The position numbers were made by a program, and so were the translations under genes. A stretch of DNA of 38,741 nucleotides from Syntrophomonadaceae bacterium (GTDB taxonomy: Bacteria > Bacillota > DSM-12270 > Thermacetogeniales > Thermacetogeniaceae), in NCBI GenBank assembly GCA_012840405.1, contig DULM01000144.1, positions 1 through 38,741 of the forward strand, given 5' to 3'. Each line of letters begins with the position of its first letter. Within the stretch, counting starts at the first letter, position 1. Shown piece by piece: positions 9,700 to 18,024 of the stretch. Below the pieces are notes generated by a model. That model ran no database searches, was not told the DNA's origin, and worked only from the letters and a program-made list of their open reading frames with translations.

Positions 9700-9958
9700 A
9701 ACTTTCCGCTAATCATTTTACTTCTTTTTCTTTCGACAGTCAAGCACTATAGATCACTTCCCAACTTGAGTCCCTTTGCTATTACCCCTTTTTACCTGTA
9801 AAAAATCATAGATTCCTCTTTCAACATGATAAAGCACTGTAAATTTTTCTCTCCTCCAGAAAAGCTCTATTTTTCGATGTTTTTTGTAATACACTTCGAC
9901 CAGAACAGACACTTTATTATTAATGCCTCCTGTATAATGGTATTCGGAGGTGTTATTA

Positions 9959-10942
9959 TTGGCTGAAATGGGAGATAATGGATTTTATTATGACGGACAC
10001 CGGCTTATTTATGTTACATACAGTTTCGAAGATTATCAAACTATCTGGGGTGGCAGCCTGAGTGATTATAAAGATTTCCTGTTAGCTCGACAGCGTAAGT
10101 TCCAACAGTTACAGGAAGAACATTTTGGTGCCTGGATTGTCTTGGTCCCCTTTGACCAGGAAGATTTTTCTAACTGGGTGGAGGAAAACCCTTTACATAA
10201 ACAGTGCAGCAACCAACATGCCCGTTGGGCATTAAAGGTTGCTAGCGATCCTTCACATTTAGTAAAGATTCGCAACCGGCACCCGCTTCAGAACTACATT
10301 TTGAAAGATGAATCTCTCAAAGCAGTTCTTTTCGCTTGGTTCCTGCCTGTAATCACTCCCAATAGCTCTTCAATGCGCAAACTGAAAGAGCCTATTCCAC
10401 AGCAACTGGTCAACCAGATCAGAGAAGAACTGATCACAGGATTACTGGCACCACTTCCCCAGTTTCAGCGCTACTCAACTACCCGGGGCACTGGTGTAGC
10501 CATCCTTCCAGGGGACAGGTTTGTTCATCCGGACACCATCGACAAGATCAGGGAACATACCATAGAATCACTGCTGCAAACATGGGATAGCTGTTCACCA
10601 CACTATTTCAGCATTTCCAAACAGTACAGCTTTCCTACCTGTCCTCACTGGCATTTTCCACGGGTAGCAGTGCTCTGTTTCCCTTTGGTGGTATTGGGAA
10701 GCTCCTTTGATTGTGAAACCGTCACAATACGGATCAGCAGAGCTGATAGCAAAGATTTGCCCCTTCACACTTGGAAAAGCTATTTTCAATTCCTCAATGT
10801 GCAATTATACCCCGGAAGGGGAACCGATTTTGCCGCAGCCGGTTTTACAAAACACATCCACAACGAAATCCAGAGAGAACTGGCCTCTAAAGCAGAACTC
10901 CTTGAGTCTAAACACACTGCCTATCTGTGGCGTGTCAAATAA
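9959..10942 (+). CDS. Hypothetical protein, no family recognised
   Basis: Long ORF on the opposite strand to its neighbours. TTG start at 9959 is 8 nt after GGAGG; the ORF track's GTG start at 9950 overlaps the Shine-Dalgarno. Confidence 0.75.
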   Translation: MAEMGDNGFYYDGHRLIYVTYSFEDYQTIWGGSLSDYKDFLLARQRKFQQLQEEHFGAWIVLVPFDQEDFSNWVEENPLHKQCSNQHARWALKVASDPSHLVKIRNRHPLQNYILKDESLKAVLFAWFLPVITPNSSSMRKLKEPIPQQLVNQIREELITGLLAPLPQFQRYSTTRGTGVAILPGDRFVHPDTIDKIREHTIESLLQTWDSCSPHYFSISKQYSFPTCPHWHFPRVAVLCFPLVVLGSSFDCETVTIRISRADSKDLPLHTWKSYFQFLNVQLYPGRGTDFAAAGFTKHIHNEIQRELASKAELLESKHTAYLWRVK

Positions 10943-10994: not shown

Positions 10995-11024
10995 ACAAAA
11001 AACCCGGCCTGTCGACCGGGTTTA
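10995..11024 (-). terminator. Rho-independent terminator between convergent genes (uppP side)
   Basis: Minus strand AAACCCGGTCGACAGGCCGGGTTTTTTG: AAACCCGG/CCGGGTTT stem with a T-run. Confidence 0.85.
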
Positions 11025-11034
11025 TATGATCCCT

Positions 11035-11829
11035 TTACATCCAGCGCATCAGTGCCACCAGCAGCACTACAGCACCTAGTAAAAAGCGGTACCAGACAAA
11101 GGGAAGAAAGTTTTTCTTTTGCACATACTTTAATAAAAAGCCAATACTTGCTGCTCCAGACAGTGCAGAAACCAGCATTCCAATCAAAAATGGAGCATCA
11201 ACCATCCCGGGGTTTGCAAGTATGTCAGGCACTTTGATCAAACCCGCCCCGAAAATGACCGGTGCTGACAGCAAAAAAGAAAAACGTGCTGCACCCTCCC
11301 GGGTAAGCCCGAAAAGAAGACCAGTGGTCATTGTGATCCCTGATCGAGAAACACCAGGGATAATAGCCAGGGCCTGGGAAATACCGATCATCAGACTTTG
11401 CCCCAGGGAAATATTATTTATATCAGTAAGTTTTTTTCCCTTTCGATCCGCCCAATAAAGTATTACACCTAGTACAATCAGCATAACCGCAATCAATATC
11501 GGATTGCGGAAAACCGTTTCCGCCTTTTCCTCCAAAAGAAGGCCCATGATAGCTCCTGGAATGGTTGCCAGTACCAGATACCAGAAAAGACGGCCTTCAA
11601 CCGTTTTCGTACCCTGAAAAGCTCCCATAATCAATTTGACCCAGTCTCTCCAGAAGTAAGCAATAACAGCTATCAGTGTTCCGATATGCAAAGCAATATC
11701 AAAGGTCAGCCCCGGATCGTGCCACTTGAAAAGCCAGGGAACTAAGACCAAGTGTGCTGAACTGGAGATGGGTAAAAACTCCCCTAAGCCCTGTACTATA
11801 CCCATCACCACTGCCTGCCAAATTGTCAC
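11035..11829 (-). CDS. uppP: Undecaprenyl-diphosphate phosphatase
   Basis: 264 aa with VVMGIVQGLGEFLPISSSAHLVLV and IIPGVSRSGITMTTGLLFGLTREGAARFSFLLS, characteristic BacA/UppP motifs. Confidence 0.97.
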   Translation of the reverse strand: MTIWQAVVMGIVQGLGEFLPISSSAHLVLVPWLFKWHDPGLTFDIALHIGTLIAVIAYFWRDWVKLIMGAFQGTKTVEGRLFWYLVLATIPGAIMGLLLEEKAETVFRNPILIAVMLIVLGVILYWADRKGKKLTDINNISLGQSLMIGISQALAIIPGVSRSGITMTTGLLFGLTREGAARFSFLLSAPVIFGAGLIKVPDILANPGMVDAPFLIGMLVSALSGAASIGFLLKYVQKKNFLPFVWYRFLLGAVVLLVALMRWM

Positions 11830-11880: not shown

Positions 11881-12531
11881 CTAACGAATACGCCTCACAC
11901 TGCTTTTTCCCTGGTGCATTTCCATCAGATATGCAATATCTGCAGAATCGGCCAGATGCTGGTTGTGGGAAACCATAATTACCTGCCGCCCCAGTGATTG
12001 ACTGAAACCCTTGAGAAATTGCGCTAACTGTGGGGCATATTCTTCTGAAACATGCTTCCCGGGTTCATCCAGGACTGCAGGTCCACCCACTGGGGTTGGG
12101 AAGGCATGGAGCAAAGCAAGCCGTAGAGCGAGAGAGATGACATCCACAACCCCTCCCCCTCGGGCTTCCTGAGGAGCAGTCTCTACCCGGTAGTCACCAT
12201 AGTTGGAACAGACATAAAAGTCTGCCTCCGGTCGATCACGCTTCTCTTCTATTACTACCTTGAATTCCATATCAGCACCAAAGACAAACTGCAGTGCCTG
12301 AGTAACCATCAGCTCCACCTGGCGGCGGCCCTGCTCCCGGGCATGTTTTGCCGCCTCAAGCAGCAGGAGACGCACCTGTTCCAGACATTCCTCATCCTGA
12401 TGGATCTTTTCCAGCTTCTGTTTCAGAGAGGCTTCTTTTTCCAAAAGCTTGGCTTGCTCTCCCCGCTGTCTGTGGTATATCTCTTTCAGTTGTTCAAAAT
12501 TCTTTTTCAAAAGACCGATGCCGCCGCTCAC
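11881..12531 (-). CDS. C-terminal half of a split Rad50/SbcC-like ABC ATPase
   Basis: Coiled-coil region, then ABC signature-like QEARGGGVVDVISLALRLALL, Walker B-like GGPAVLDEPGKHVSEEY and H-loop VIMVSHNQHLAD. No Walker A. Start taken as the GTG at 12531, overlapping the upstream TGA (GTGA) and preceded by AAAAGGAG; the ORF track starts at 12561. Confidence 0.85.
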   Translation of the reverse strand: MSGGIGLLKKNFEQLKEIYHRQRGEQAKLLEKEASLKQKLEKIHQDEECLEQVRLLLLEAAKHAREQGRRQVELMVTQALQFVFGADMEFKVVIEEKRDRPEADFYVCSNYGDYRVETAPQEARGGGVVDVISLALRLALLHAFPTPVGGPAVLDEPGKHVSEEYAPQLAQFLKGFSQSLGRQVIMVSHNQHLADSADIAYLMEMHQGKSSVRRIR

Positions 12532-12806
12532 CGGGAACGCTCCTTTTCCAGCAGATCCCATGGAATCAGCTTCTTTGCTTCCTCCAGCAACTGATCCATC
12601 TCCTGCTTTAAGCTAGCTATTTTGTCCCCCAATTCCTCTGGTTTGACCCCATACTCAGCAGCCTTCTGGTAGAGCTTTTCCCTTTGCTGCTCCAGCAGTT
12701 CCTTCTGACTTAGAGCTCGCTCCCTCAAGTCACGGGATCTGCGCAGAGCCTCTTTCAGGTGATTGATCTGCTTTTCATACAGGGCTTGTTCTTTAGATTC
12801 TGCCAT
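12528..12806 (-). CDS. Small coiled-coil protein, candidate middle segment of the split Rad50-like ATPase
   Basis: 92 aa, highly charged heptad-like sequence (QALYEKQINHLKEALRRSRDLRERALSQKELLEQQREKLYQKAAEYG...). ATG preceded by AAGGGGGGG. Lies in the same reading frame as the upstream N-half. Confidence 0.75.
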   Translation of the reverse strand: MAESKEQALYEKQINHLKEALRRSRDLRERALSQKELLEQQREKLYQKAAEYGVKPEELGDKIASLKQEMDQLLEEAKKLIPWDLLEKERSR

Positions 12807-12818
12807 GTCTTCCCCCCC

Positions 12819-14126
12819 TTATCTATATTCATCCAGGACTCTCTCCACAGCTTCCTGATCCAGTTCTCCATAACAAACTGGACATCTTCCAATCTTCAGC
12901 AATAAACCCCTGAATCTTACCAAATACTGGTTAATATCTTGTTGATAGCGCTCTGCTGCCAGACAGGCCCCCTGGTAGGCCTTTTCTAATTCTTGCAACT
13001 CCTGTCGAATCTCCTGATAAACTGCTAACCTGCGCCCGTTATTCTCCATTTTTTCGAGATTATTTTCTACCTTTTCCAATTCTTTTGTTCGCTCTGTAAT
13101 AAACACAATTTTCTTTATATAACGGTCAATATTTTCTAGTTCTCCCTGTACCTGGCCGAGTTCCTTCCACTCGTTAAAGTACGGATCAACCTTCTGGAGA
13201 TGAGCATCAATCACTGGCACCTGTGCGGTTTCATCAATTACCTGTAAACAGCGTTCAAACTGCTGGTTGACTTGCTTTATCTCCATCTCCAGGGTAGTAA
13301 GAGATCTGTACCCATCAAAAATATTTTTCAGTTCCTGGTATTTCGCCTCAGTTTCATCAAGACCAATAATGGCAGCCAAGACCTTCTGTTTTTTTGCTAA
13401 TTCAGCCTTATTCTCCTCCCATTCACTTTTGAGTGAGGTAAGTTCTTCAATCATCTGAGAAATATTTTCTATGCGCTGAAGTAAAAGCTCAATCTGTTCG
13501 ATTCTCTTCTCCAGCTCTGGAAGGTGGTCATATGCTGTCAAGGCTTCTGTGATCTGCTCCAGTTCCTCCTGGCACCGTTTCTCCTGCTCTGACAGGCGCC
13601 TTAGATCAGTGTTCACGGAACGCTGGGCCAAATCGATAATATGGACTCCCCCTAGCTGTCCGATCACCTTGGCTCTGACTGACCCATTCTCAGCCAGCAA
13701 AAACGGTCCTTCCAATTGGGTGCCGAAATTCAATTCCACCTTGTTGTTTTCATCAATAAAAATCTTCCTGACACCGGAAGCCTGGATGATTTCAGCGGGG
13801 ATCTCATTGCCAAACCCCTCAAAAACCAGTTCTTCCTTACCAGGTTTTCGTAATAGGTACTGGTTTTTCCCTGCTGTGCTCCGGAGGCGAGTGATCAGTG
13901 TTCCATCATTCAGTTCGATAGTTACCTTACAGACCCTGGCCCCGGCTCTGATAAAACTGCTCCCCCGGGGCTCATTATAGAGAACCCACCGCAGTGCTCT
14001 CACCACAGCGGATTTGCCGTAATCTGAAGGACCGACAATAACATTCAGCCCGGGCCCGAATTCTATTTCAGTGTGTTCATGGGACTGAAAGTTGTCGATA
14101 ATAATTTTCTTGATGTTGGTCATCAC
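12819..14126 (-). CDS. N-terminal half of a split Rad50/SbcC-like ATPase, ending just after a zinc-hook-like CPVC motif
   Basis: KKIIIDNFQSHEHTEIEFGPGLNVIVGPSDYGKSAVVRALRW (Walker A GPSDYGKS), a long coiled coil, then IGRCPVCYGELDQEAVERVLDEYR*. Lacks signature, Walker B and H-loop. Confidence 0.9.
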   Translation of the reverse strand: MMTNIKKIIIDNFQSHEHTEIEFGPGLNVIVGPSDYGKSAVVRALRWVLYNEPRGSSFIRAGARVCKVTIELNDGTLITRLRSTAGKNQYLLRKPGKEELVFEGFGNEIPAEIIQASGVRKIFIDENNKVELNFGTQLEGPFLLAENGSVRAKVIGQLGGVHIIDLAQRSVNTDLRRLSEQEKRCQEELEQITEALTAYDHLPELEKRIEQIELLLQRIENISQMIEELTSLKSEWEENKAELAKKQKVLAAIIGLDETEAKYQELKNIFDGYRSLTTLEMEIKQVNQQFERCLQVIDETAQVPVIDAHLQKVDPYFNEWKELGQVQGELENIDRYIKKIVFITERTKELEKVENNLEKMENNGRRLAVYQEIRQELQELEKAYQGACLAAERYQQDINQYLVRFRGLLLKIGRCPVCYGELDQEAVERVLDEYR

Positions 14127-15115
14127 TGATCATCCCCAAGGGCAAGAGACTCCTCTGCGCGAGCAATTCTGCGCACTGCCTCCTCTATTACCATAGCTGG
14201 CAGTTTTTCTGCCTTGGCGATCTCTTCCAGCAGAACCCGTACATCTGTTCGCTGGTAATTCCCCGCTGCCTTTACCTCTGCCATATACCCTGCCAACTTC
14301 TGTTCCCGGAAAGCGGCCTCCTCTAGACGGGACCTGTCCAGGACATCCTCACCCGGTGCAGCGCTTTTAAGCTTGATCTTTTCAACAACAGGCTGGGATC
14401 CGGAGAGGTCGATAATAACTACCTGCACAGGCCTTTTCATTTCCTGCTGGTGGTTAGAGAGACGGACCAATGCCCCAGGATTGATAAAATACTTTCCATC
14501 TATCACTGTATCAGGGAACCCAAGGTGGTTATGTCCGGCCAAAGTAAAATCCGCCTCTGTATCAGAGATCTGCTCAATCAAAGTGTAAAAAGCACCTGGG
14601 AAAAGAGCCCGCTGCAGCAGCATGCCATGCACCATATGGATAGCATAATCACAGTCTTTTTTCTTTACCACATAATCCAGTCTGCGGTCCCGGCGGTCCA
14701 TCTCATAGTGATAACCCTGCCCGGTCAACTGCACCCGTAAACCTTTTTTCTCCAAATAAACAGCTTCCCTTCCCACCAGATGCACAATACCCAGTCTAGC
14801 AGCAAACCCCAGCATTGTGCGGGGTAGGGTCTCAATATTGTGCCCAAAGAGGTCATGATTGCCTGGTATAGTATATACCGGAACATTAAACTGCTGGTAG
14901 AGCTGAAGATAATCAGCGCAAACACTCAGTGCAGGGGCGGGAACATCAAAAAAATCCCCCCCATGGAGCACATAGTCCACTTCCTGTTCTTTGGCGATCT
15001 TCACAACCTCATTCAGCTTGGTGAGCAGTGTCTGAGGAAAGTTATCCTTCCTGTTTTCAGGGCTTGTGCCCCTCTTATGGTCATCTGTGAAATAAAGCAG
15101 GCGCATCCTTAACAT
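14123..15115 (-). CDS. Mre11/SbcD-like metallophosphoesterase
   Basis: LLYFTDDHKRGTSPENR, VDYVLHGGDFFDVP, VYTIPGNHDLFGH, FTLAGHNHLG: calcineurin-like phosphoesterase motifs. Overlaps the downstream ATPase gene by 4 nt (ATGA). Confidence 0.9.
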   Translation of the reverse strand: MLRMRLLYFTDDHKRGTSPENRKDNFPQTLLTKLNEVVKIAKEQEVDYVLHGGDFFDVPAPALSVCADYLQLYQQFNVPVYTIPGNHDLFGHNIETLPRTMLGFAARLGIVHLVGREAVYLEKKGLRVQLTGQGYHYEMDRRDRRLDYVVKKKDCDYAIHMVHGMLLQRALFPGAFYTLIEQISDTEADFTLAGHNHLGFPDTVIDGKYFINPGALVRLSNHQQEMKRPVQVVIIDLSGSQPVVEKIKLKSAAPGEDVLDRSRLEEAAFREQKLAGYMAEVKAAGNYQRTDVRVLLEEIAKAEKLPAMVIEEAVRRIARAEESLALGDDQ

Positions 15116-15159
15116 CTCCCATAGTCTTAACCGTGTTATATGGGGTAGCTGAAACCTTA

Positions 15160-17004
15160 TTATTCATTAACCGCTTGATAGGTGGGGCCAAAGGGCCCTT
15201 CGATCTTCTCTAATTTACCCTCTGCAGCCAGTGCTTCCAATAATGCCTGTACTTCATCCACAGTAACTGTCCGATCAAGGGCATTCTCTAACTCTGAAAG
15301 AATAAGGGTAATCTGTCCAAAGTGCAAGGGAAGATAATTGGAAATTACCCTAAACAATTCTGCATCAGTTCCACCAAAATCTCTGTCCAGTTCAGCAAAG
15401 GGATTTAATGAGCGGGGAGCCTGAGTTCTTGCACAGCGGATGCGGACAGATACGGTTCTTCCCACTATTGCTGAGGACACAAAGGCAGTACCTGAGGGCA
15501 AGTAAGGAAGCCTACCAGCCTCCTCTCCGGAAATGTCGGTTTCTTCTCTGATCACATCGATATCACTTGCTCTTACTGTACGGAAAATGATCTTGGTGTT
15601 CAGCTGAGCTGTGATGGTTTCATCCAGCAGAGCTGGCCGTTGGGTAGCCAGAATAAGAAACACCCCGTATTTTCTCCCCTCCTGGGCTACCTCCCGGAAA
15701 ATACTCCGGGCTGGGGAAACAAATTCGATCCCTTTGCGGGCAAAGTTATGAGCCTCATCGGTCACAATAACAAAAGGAGGAAATTTATCAGCAGGGGGTT
15801 CCCCCCTCTGCAGAGCATCGATATAATCCCGGCGCATCCCATACAGTTTTCTGATCAAATAGGCGCTGAAAACAGTTAACAGCCAGATAGGCCCGCGGAT
15901 CACCGTCAGCCGCCTCCGCAGAAGAGCATTTAGGATGGCAGAAATATCCTTCTGGAAAATCCCCTCCCTGTTCAAACGGTGCAGTCGCCAACTGATACCC
16001 CTCAAACTGCTAGGGTGGCCTGCCTGCCGGGCTATGTTGTCGATCTTCTTCTCAAAAGGGGAGTTTTCTCCGTAGTTCTTACGTATTTCCGCTCTGGTTT
16101 CCTCCTCTTTTTCCGCCAGCCTGATGCAGTAATCGAGTTTTTGGGCAAATGATATAAATGAGTCCTTTGGTTGGTGGATAGCCTTCAGGGCATTATCCAT
16201 CCCTTCTGTAAAATTACCCCCGGCAGCCCTTAGGAGAGAGGCAAGATCATCGCTGGTCAGGTCCTCAAAATTGACACCTGTCTCCCGGCCCACTGTCAAA
16301 ATTTCCGTATTGCTGGCATATTTTTTAGCTATCCCCTCATCCATACCTTCAAAAGGGGTGTTAAAACTCATTTCATAATGGGGATCAAAGATCAGGGTGG
16401 GAATTCTTTTATCCATCAGTTCCTCCAAGATCACCCTCATCCCGAAGGACTTGCCTGAACCGGACCCCCCGAAAATCCCGATATGGGGGTATTCCTGCAT
16501 AGCCTTGTGGTCAAAGACAAAGGGCACACCCTTCTGGGGGAGTATGCCTTCCCCTTTTTTATAGAGAGGAGCGAGATTTTTCAATTGATCAGGCAGGGTC
16601 CCCTGCATATCCTCTGTTCCCAAGATCACACCCAGCACTAAACCACTGTCCGGTTCACAAGGGAGCAGTAGGTCAGCCACCTCAGCAAAGGAGGGAAGAT
16701 GGACAGCAGCACCAACAGCCACAGGGTACGGAATATCAGTCAGGATCCTTACCTTGGCTAGGTGAATGGTTTCCTCACCTAGGCGAAAACCCACCTGTTC
16801 CAATCCATTCCAAACAGCTGGATCGATTAGAGGGCTCTGTTCCATGGTTAGAGGAAGAAATCTATTGAAAGATTTGGTCTCCACCACTTCTCCCCTAAGG
16901 TTTAATTCAGGGTCATCGATGACCAGGATCTCCCCGATCCTGAACTTGCGCTCCCTTGATGCTATATAAACAAACTGCTGGGTAGTCACACCAACAACCT
17001 GCAT
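15160..17004 (-). CDS. herA: HerA-like DNA-translocating ATPase
   Basis: 614 aa. Walker A HIGIFGGSGSGKSFGMRVILEEL, Walker B FVIVTDEAHNFA, LILATQRPALLDETITAQLNTKIIFRT, and an N-terminal beta-rich region compatible with a HAS-barrel. Confidence 0.9.
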   Translation of the reverse strand: MQVVGVTTQQFVYIASRERKFRIGEILVIDDPELNLRGEVVETKSFNRFLPLTMEQSPLIDPAVWNGLEQVGFRLGEETIHLAKVRILTDIPYPVAVGAAVHLPSFAEVADLLLPCEPDSGLVLGVILGTEDMQGTLPDQLKNLAPLYKKGEGILPQKGVPFVFDHKAMQEYPHIGIFGGSGSGKSFGMRVILEELMDKRIPTLIFDPHYEMSFNTPFEGMDEGIAKKYASNTEILTVGRETGVNFEDLTSDDLASLLRAAGGNFTEGMDNALKAIHQPKDSFISFAQKLDYCIRLAEKEEETRAEIRKNYGENSPFEKKIDNIARQAGHPSSLRGISWRLHRLNREGIFQKDISAILNALLRRRLTVIRGPIWLLTVFSAYLIRKLYGMRRDYIDALQRGEPPADKFPPFVIVTDEAHNFARKGIEFVSPARSIFREVAQEGRKYGVFLILATQRPALLDETITAQLNTKIIFRTVRASDIDVIREETDISGEEAGRLPYLPSGTAFVSSAIVGRTVSVRIRCARTQAPRSLNPFAELDRDFGGTDAELFRVISNYLPLHFGQITLILSELENALDRTVTVDEVQALLEALAAEGKLEKIEGPFGPTYQAVNE

Positions 17005-17025
17005 GAAATCTCCTCCCCTTCACAA

Positions 17026-18024
17026 CTAAAGCTCTCTGTTTGCCCTGAGGGGTCTTAAAAACATCTCAACCATAGCCGGATCTAAACAGGCAGCGATCAT
17101 AGCCTCTACCTGTTCCCTGCTCAGTCGCACCTCAGCATCTACCACATCAAGCCAAAGAGGGATACCCCTTCCGTGGGCTGGGGTTATACTGTATAAAAAG
17201 TTGAGAGCCGGCACAAGCTCTCTCTCCTGCTCCATCAAATAGTCAACAGCCACCACCTGAGGGTGTCCGGCAAAACGGACGTAGAGGCGCCCCTTTTCTC
17301 CCCTGGTCCTCTCCCGCAGTTGGTACACTTCCCCGGGCTGCAGCACCCCGAACAAAATCTCCCGGTCACCCATCACACCATGACAAAGGGGATCCCCATC
17401 AAAACCAAGGATTTTCATCAGTGAACAACTGGCGATCTCCTCTGTCACCCCCAGCAATATAACATCCTCTCTGAGGGCTGCAGCTTTCAGTTCACTCCAA
17501 ATATCTGGAGCATGCTCTTTCAACCGGTCAAAACCGCCATCCAGGAGCAAAAGACGGGGCTTTAAGGACACTGCCTGCAAGGCCACCTTTGTTTCAATTT
17601 GAGCTAATATCCCCCAGCGCAGGTGAGCCATTACCTCCTCCGGGCTTTTACCTCCTGTCAGGTATTTATCTATGATCTGCTGGTATCTGGGTAGGAGAGG
17701 TGAAAAGATCTCCTGCTCCCAGATCCTTTTATGATCACCGCCAGCACTGCTTGCATAAGCAAGGGCACGCAAAAAAGTTAGCAGGTAAGGATAACTAGCC
17801 CCATAAGTAACCAGTGACCCATCAACCCCTACCAGTGGTCTTCCCTGAAAAAAAGAAGAGATCTCCCTAACGGAAAGTCGACTCAGGGGGGTGAATACCC
17901 CTTTCTGCTCTGCCCGCCGTCTTCTCTCTCTGTTGCTTCCTCCCACTTTTGAGCGCTTTTCTAAATAAGTGTTCAAGCCTTTGAGTTCATCAAGCAGTTT
18001 GTCCTCAGGGAGCAAACAGTTCAC
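17026..18024 (-). CDS. nurA: NurA-domain nuclease
   Basis: FFQGRPLVGVDGSLVTYGASYPYLLTFLRALAYAS (conserved DGS) and LLLLDGGFDRLKEHAP. Adjacent to herA. Exact start uncertain (GTG 18024 or TTG 18015). Confidence 0.85.
   Translation of the reverse strand: MNCLLPEDKLLDELKGLNTYLEKRSKVGGSNRERRRRAEQKGVFTPLSRLSVREISSFFQGRPLVGVDGSLVTYGASYPYLLTFLRALAYASSAGGDHKRIWEQEIFSPLLPRYQQIIDKYLTGGKSPEEVMAHLRWGILAQIETKVALQAVSLKPRLLLLDGGFDRLKEHAPDIWSELKAAALREDVILLGVTEEIASCSLMKILGFDGDPLCHGVMGDREILFGVLQPGEVYQLRERTRGEKGRLYVRFAGHPQVVAVDYLMEQERELVPALNFLYSITPAHGRGIPLWLDVVDAEVRLSREQVEAMIAACLDPAMVEMFLRPLRANREL

Follow-up and report, generated by a model that had tools for sequence, protein, structure and literature searches.

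In thermophilic archaea, the genes herA, mre11, rad50 and nurA lie together in a four-function cluster, whose Mre11-Rad50 products open blocked DNA ends that are then resected by HerA-NurA (PMC8708640). The HerA-NurA pair has already been noted in Firmicutes by the same source, and in Deinococcus nurA-herA has been treated as an operon of its own (PMC9960219), while homologues of the bacterial nuclease SbcCD have been noted in phages (PMC7824862). Here we describe a locus of six minus-strand genes (positions 11881-18024) in a 38,741-nucleotide stretch of DNA from a Syntrophomonadaceae bacterium of the class DSM-12270, phylum Bacillota (assembly GCA_012840405.1, contig DULM01000144.1, positions 1 to 38,741; the whole of that stretch is referred to below as the window). 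The locus encodes NurA, HerA, Mre11 and a Rad50 divided among three proteins, designated Rad50-N, CC and Rad50-C. By analogy with the archaeal system, and at a probability that we place near three in four, it would serve housekeeping DNA-end processing, with Mre11 and the three-piece Rad50 working alongside a HerA-NurA motor-nuclease.

The locus resembles the archaeal cluster in uniting the four functions and in possessing a NurA with a fold like that of Sulfolobus NurA, but differs in that its Rad50 consists of three proteins, its HerA and NurA are far from the archaeal equivalogs, and it is a bacterial core locus. It shares with SbcCD a calcineurin-type nuclease beside a Rad50-type ATPase with a CxxC hook, whereas SbcC is a single chain with an SGG signature in place of the GGG found in Rad50-C, and no SbcC match above cut-off was obtained here. 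In contrast to the bacterial NurA-HerA pair of Deinococcus, the pair described here is linked to Mre11 and to the three-piece Rad50. The same three Rad50 pieces correspond to the phage families phrog_16465, phrog_18563 and phrog_15167 (for example gp32, gp34 and gp35 of Bacillus phage vB_BboS-125), with near full-length matches for the N and C pieces; those phage genes, however, have no adjoining HerA-NurA, their Mre11 is usually last or fused to Rad50-N, and their annotation extends only to exonuclease, ATPase or hypothetical protein. No description of a three-piece Rad50, of a split adjacent to the hook or of a 47-residue arm unit was found in open-access text (subscription papers lay outside the search).

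Organization of the locus and identity of its products

The window belongs to a genome (261 contigs) of the Syntrophaceticus/Thermacetogenium group, an anaerobe with spore-forming kin. All six tightly packed open reading frames that a preliminary description had read from the sequence alone were recovered, in the order NurA, HerA, Mre11, Rad50-N, CC and Rad50-C, followed by uppP. The identities that it had assigned were borne out by Pfam matches to NurA, DUF87, Metallophos and AAA_23 and by matches of Rad50-C to Rad50 C-halves. Of the two coupled overlaps it had listed, the GTGA shared by CC and Rad50-C (which starts at the GTG at 12531) was found, and the ATGA was not: the junction of Mre11 and Rad50-N is GTGATG, yielding a GTGA overlap if Rad50-N starts at GTG, or TGATG if it starts at ATG. 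Because the gene order is conserved across the group, the six-gene arrangement lies far beyond chance.

The mre11/sbcD-like gene (14123-15115, 330 amino acids) matches Metallophos at 5e-11, and its five phosphoesterase motifs (D10/H12, G52-D53, G84-N85-H86, H162 and H194/H196) are kept in 104 relatives; it gives an Mre11-like match and scores below the cut-off of the SbcD subfamily. Rad50-N (12819-14126, 435 amino acids; AAA_23 at 1.7e-18, phrog_16465 at 4e-74) contains the N-half of the ATPase, an arm and a zinc hook, and its AlphaFold 2 (AF2) model matches Rad50/SMC heads. Within it, the Walker A motif GPSDYGKS (14010-14033) retains G32, G37 and K38 without exception in alignment A3, and in the hook CPVC (12873-12884) neither cysteine, C415 or C418, varies among 69 aligned sequences, a CxxC being present in 162 of 166 Rad50-N proteins. 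The split in Rad50 falls directly after that hook, with Rad50-N ending about 17 residues beyond the CxxC (17 in the window). CC (12528-12806), a helical protein of 92 amino acids with a GVxPExL turn and an LIPxDL end (alignment A5), is encoded in most loci between the other two Rad50 pieces; profile searches matched it to no named family, and only to the phage family phrog_18563 (8.6e-6).

Rad50-C (11881-12531, 216 amino acids from a GTG start) matches phrog_15167 at 5.9e-59 and represents the C-half of an ABC ATPase, the best matches of its profile in the PDB being C-half chains of Rad50. Its Walker B motif LDEP (12061-12072), in which D153 and E154 are invariant, is of the Rad50 type and is followed by KHVS. 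At the position of the SGG[EQ] signature, in a register taken from alignment to Rad50 C-halves, it reads RGGGV (12148-12162); this replacement of the serine to give GGG is family-wide, with RGGG[VI] in 141 of 181 sequences and RGGG[VI] or EGGG[VI] in 150 of 181. Walker A in the N-half, Walker B in the C-half and the CxxC hook are thus as in Rad50/SbcC, but where Rad50/SbcC has one chain whose N and C coils match, there are here three reading frames, with an arm length that is independent of CC. A frameshift or assembly error as the source of the split was ruled out, as the same three frames recur in about 100 loci, including those of phages and plasmids; the three-piece Rad50 of the preliminary description is therefore a recurring arrangement, in gene order as well as in its division.

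HerA (15160-17004, 614 amino acids) is a hexameric motor of the FtsK/HerA class (DUF87 at 3.4e-18, with matches to HerA structures in the PDB) that possesses the HerA/FtsK ATPase core with both a Walker A motif (GGSGSGKS, 16447-16470) and a DEAH Walker B motif (15748-15759), each at least 95% conserved among 41 relatives. Against the archaeal HerA equivalogs of NCBIfam it scores 60-63 bits, where the cut-offs are 800-970. NurA (17026-18024, 332 amino acids from a GTG start) matches Pfam NurA at 2.4e-10, with 40.8 bits against a cut-off of 21; among 24 relatives (alignment A4) its metal-binding motif D68-G69-S70 (17815-17823), E144 and D162-G163 are invariant. Because NurA is the weakest of the gene identifications, its structure was predicted. 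While phmmer matched it to no solved NurA in the PDB by sequence, the AF2 model, built from the 24 relatives (predicted local distance difference test 90.6), had Sulfolobus solfataricus NurA (2ygk) as its top PDB match, at E 1.4e-10 and a template modelling (TM) score of 0.58-0.60. Judged by their sequences, HerA and NurA are not archaeal-like.

An arm of 47-residue units

The Rad50-N arm (12885-13628) is composed of helical repeats, amounting to 13 + 5 x 47 residues. Autocorrelation of Rad50-N gives peaks at 47, 94 and 141 residues (at lag 47, +0.05 against a mean of -0.63 and a shuffle maximum of -0.56), whereas the SMC arms of related genomes, taken as a control, display heptads and no peak at 47 (-0.76 at that lag). 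The lengths between head and hook are quantized in the same unit: most sequences have 248, 295, 342 or 436 residues, corresponding to 13 + 47n for n = 5, 6, 7 and 9, and 63 of 69 fit that relation within 0-1 residue. The unit consensus includes a T..lE.AE helix cap, a relative (L088) carries an exact-unit tandem duplication of 141 nucleotides with copies that are 72% identical, and the AF2 model of Rad50-N consists of successive long helices. As n rises, the lengths of CC and of the tail beyond the hook stay flat.

These lengths favour an arm that extends as an in-line rod, which is the simpler geometry because changes of n by a single unit would flip the hook in an up-and-down bundle, and the hook stays terminal. 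The three proteins would then reflect an arm that is not an intramolecular antiparallel coil of equal-length strands, with Rad50-N alone carrying a hook-tipped rod of 47-residue units, the hooks presumably dimerizing through zinc, and CC assisting the arm as a distinct subunit. A conventional coil, with CC and the helix of Rad50-C as its return strand and with the split as a neutral fission of the gene, is a less likely account of the arm's structure: CC and Rad50-C are indeed helical and come after the hook when the pieces are read in order, and the short coupled overlaps suggest co-translation, but the arm varies by whole units to which neither CC nor the post-hook tail responds, the C side offers about 140 residues against an arm of 248-436, and Rad50-C is unlinked in Acetivibrio-type genomes. 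We tentatively suggest, as a possibility short of an even chance, that the family forms a Rad50 class of its own, in which the ATPase is a heterotrimer with a modular one-polypeptide rod grown by unit duplication, with CC (possibly several per arm) clipped on instead of a return strand from the same chain, and with a head that has dispensed with the signature serine.

The role of the Rad50/SMC arm and of its length is a long-standing question. The locus places the arm and hook and the two halves of the head in different genes, and its natural series (n = 5, 6, 7, 9 and an armless form described below) provides ready comparisons for tethering and clamp models.

Conservation, distribution and co-occurrence with NurA

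Each of the 20 class genomes that were examined has Rad50-C, with identities of 70-95%, and 14 loci of the class, among them that of the window, show the entire set from NurA to Rad50-C, with uppP adjacent and often dnaE; four further class loci are truncated by contig ends. The genomic place is fixed, with hypothetical and CAAX genes on one side and uppP-dnaE on the other. On this sequence evidence, the six-gene set is a vertically kept chromosomal core locus of the lineage. Both NurA and HerA were recognized by the profile searches that the preliminary description had proposed, and the neighbourhood survey found the cluster present in close relatives.

Beyond the class, in a sample of 398 genomes of the phylum, the six-gene order recurs in 14 of the loci that were fetched. 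The four genes from Mre11 to Rad50-C are chromosomal in Desulfotomaculum, Carboxydocella, Tumebacillus, Halanaerobacter, Tepidanaerobacter, Alkalihalophilus and others, and are carried, with no NurA, by plasmids of Paenibacillus, Brevibacillus, Geobacillus and Bacillus as well as by phages; Mre11 is fused to Rad50-N in plasmids and in some viral contigs. In Acetivibrio-type genomes, Mre11, Rad50-N and CC occupy one locus and Rad50-C another, as at L120:8965-9648, where Rad50-C is by itself, flanked by folD-like and rny-like genes. The HerA matches of those loci were set aside as FtsK/SpoIIIE, on the basis of L120, with the rest of the group assumed to be alike. Alignment A1 was used to scan the collection, A2 being too diverse. 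In the Mre11 tree, the sequences linked to HerA-NurA form one part and a large body of unlinked sequences the other, while those of phages and plasmids fall outside; the viral branches are long, the root, placed at the midpoint, is provisional, and no archaeal homologues are included.

In the same sample, with the Rad50-C family called at E < 1e-28, 52 genomes outside the class possess Rad50-C. NurA accompanies it in 42 of these and is found in 20 of the 333 others (Fisher p 3e-31; 1e-14 at the family level), often at a distant locus with no linkage to the Rad50 pieces. HerA-NurA is thereby tied statistically to Mre11-Rad50 in bacteria.

One lineage (family f40) has no arm: Mre11, the Rad50-N head and the Rad50-C head form one chain of 686-702 amino acids (L212:8655-10760, L213:6758-8815 and L214:8586-10682) that contains neither arm, hook nor CC. 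Neither CC nor NurA was found in its three genomes, which belong to one family and count as one event; CC was found in nine of nine comparison genomes. Because the arm and CC are lost jointly there, CC is suggested to serve the arm, which it may contact. In L214 the fusion gene lies before addB and addA, and the joint loss of NurA together with this adjacency of AddAB suggests a switch of partner.

Proposed function and alternative explanations

In the mechanism that we favour, Rad50-N and Rad50-C would assemble a Rad50-type ATPase head that binds Mre11; the head and Mre11 would recognize blocked or broken DNA ends and incise them; and the HerA ring motor and NurA nuclease would then resect, as their archaeal counterparts do, and so provide RecA with a 3' single strand. 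Profile and structure matches support every part except CC, and the catalytic motifs of NurA, HerA and Mre11 are kept; the shared role in end processing put forward in the preliminary description gains support, by analogy, from the same evidence. Several observations weigh on the other side. Two class genomes of one genus (G012 and G013) have no HerA-NurA upstream of Mre11, and the phage copies and many chromosomal ones likewise have no adjacent pair. The glycine in place of the ABC signature serine could mean an altered use of ATP, and the Rad50-N model has a predicted TM score of just 0.41, so that the packing and geometry of the arm are not fixed by it. AddA probably also occurs in the genome of the window (G000:C218), in which case the six-gene set is not its sole route of resection. 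The role of NurA-HerA in Deinococcus has been called controversial, with modest effects of deletion (PMC9960219), and bacterial roles of the pair may differ from those in archaea.

Both origins that the preliminary description had entertained, a transferred and remodelled machine or a defence-like complex, fit the locus poorly. That an archaeal HerA-NurA-Mre11-Rad50 cluster was transferred and its rad50 later broken up is very improbable: archaea do have the same four functions together, but HerA falls far short of the archaeal cut-offs, the Mre11 tree shows the set dispersed among Bacillota, the phage and plasmid forms are already split, and the locus is a chromosomal core of the whole lineage. 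These sequence comparisons argue against a recent archaeal import specifically, the Mre11 tree, with its sampling, having no bearing on a very old transfer. An anti-phage defence role, in which HerA, NurA and an SMC-like ATPase would make up a nuclease-helicase system, is likewise very improbable. Defence systems do include HerA and Rad50-like ATPases, and four PADLOC models (mad8, HerA, LmuB and mad3) gave matches of 1e-12 to 1e-24; those matches are at superfamily level only, however, and neither NurA nor Mre11 matches a PADLOC model convincingly. Defence loci are patchy, whereas practically all genomes of the class have this operon in its fixed place, and its Mre11-Rad50 part is carried by phages and plasmids themselves. 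A defence island was rejected on this synteny and universality, no known system being matched in full. A third possibility, somewhat below an even chance, concerns origin only and is compatible with a housekeeping function: the three-piece Rad50 may have arisen in phages or plasmids, been captured by Bacillota chromosomes and joined a pre-existing HerA-NurA. It accords with the PHROG families that match all three pieces and with the outlying position of phage and plasmid Mre11, although a midpoint root and long viral branches do not fix the direction of transfer.

Neighbouring and additional genes

The adjacent uppP (BacA; 11035-11829, minus strand, Pfam BacA at 2.8e-84) retains its position throughout the class and is followed on its 3' side by a terminator-like hairpin (11000-11023, minus strand) with a stem of 10 pairs and a T-rich tail; uppP is probably the last gene of the transcription unit, which would end at that hairpin. 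Between dnaE and uppP, on the plus strand (9950-10942), lies a 330-amino-acid reading frame that gave no match in Pfam and none of significance in NCBIfam.

An intact sbcCD filling the same role, which the preliminary description had named as a finding that would count against it, was not encountered: no canonical SbcC scored above the model cut-off in the 20 class genomes, that cut-off being strict enough that only one of 14 control genomes passes it. In the class genome G019, which is a single contig, the AddA model matches only a 741-amino-acid PcrA-like frame, and since SbcC is likewise missing above cut-off the six-gene set may be a main resection route there. The genome of the window also encodes a second SbcD-like nuclease (383 amino acids) overlapping an 824-amino-acid reading frame with no Pfam match (L264:532-4090, G000:C101), possibly a YhaO/YhaN-type pair.

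Three genomes (G019, G010 and G014, at L057, L058 and L059, respectively) carry a second set of Mre11, Rad50-N, CC and Rad50-C, about 40% identical and with no HerA-NurA, which is probably borne by a mobile element; the copy in L058 lies near a DNA methyltransferase gene. In one phage locus, an AP2-domain gene (L064:5026-5598) located between Rad50-N and CC suggests the insertion of a homing endonuclease. Elsewhere in the genome of the window (L062:214-4343, G000:C236) is a Gabija-like pair, comprising an ATPase of 731 amino acids with AAA_15 and OLD-like TOPRIM domains and a UvrD-like helicase of 649 amino acids.

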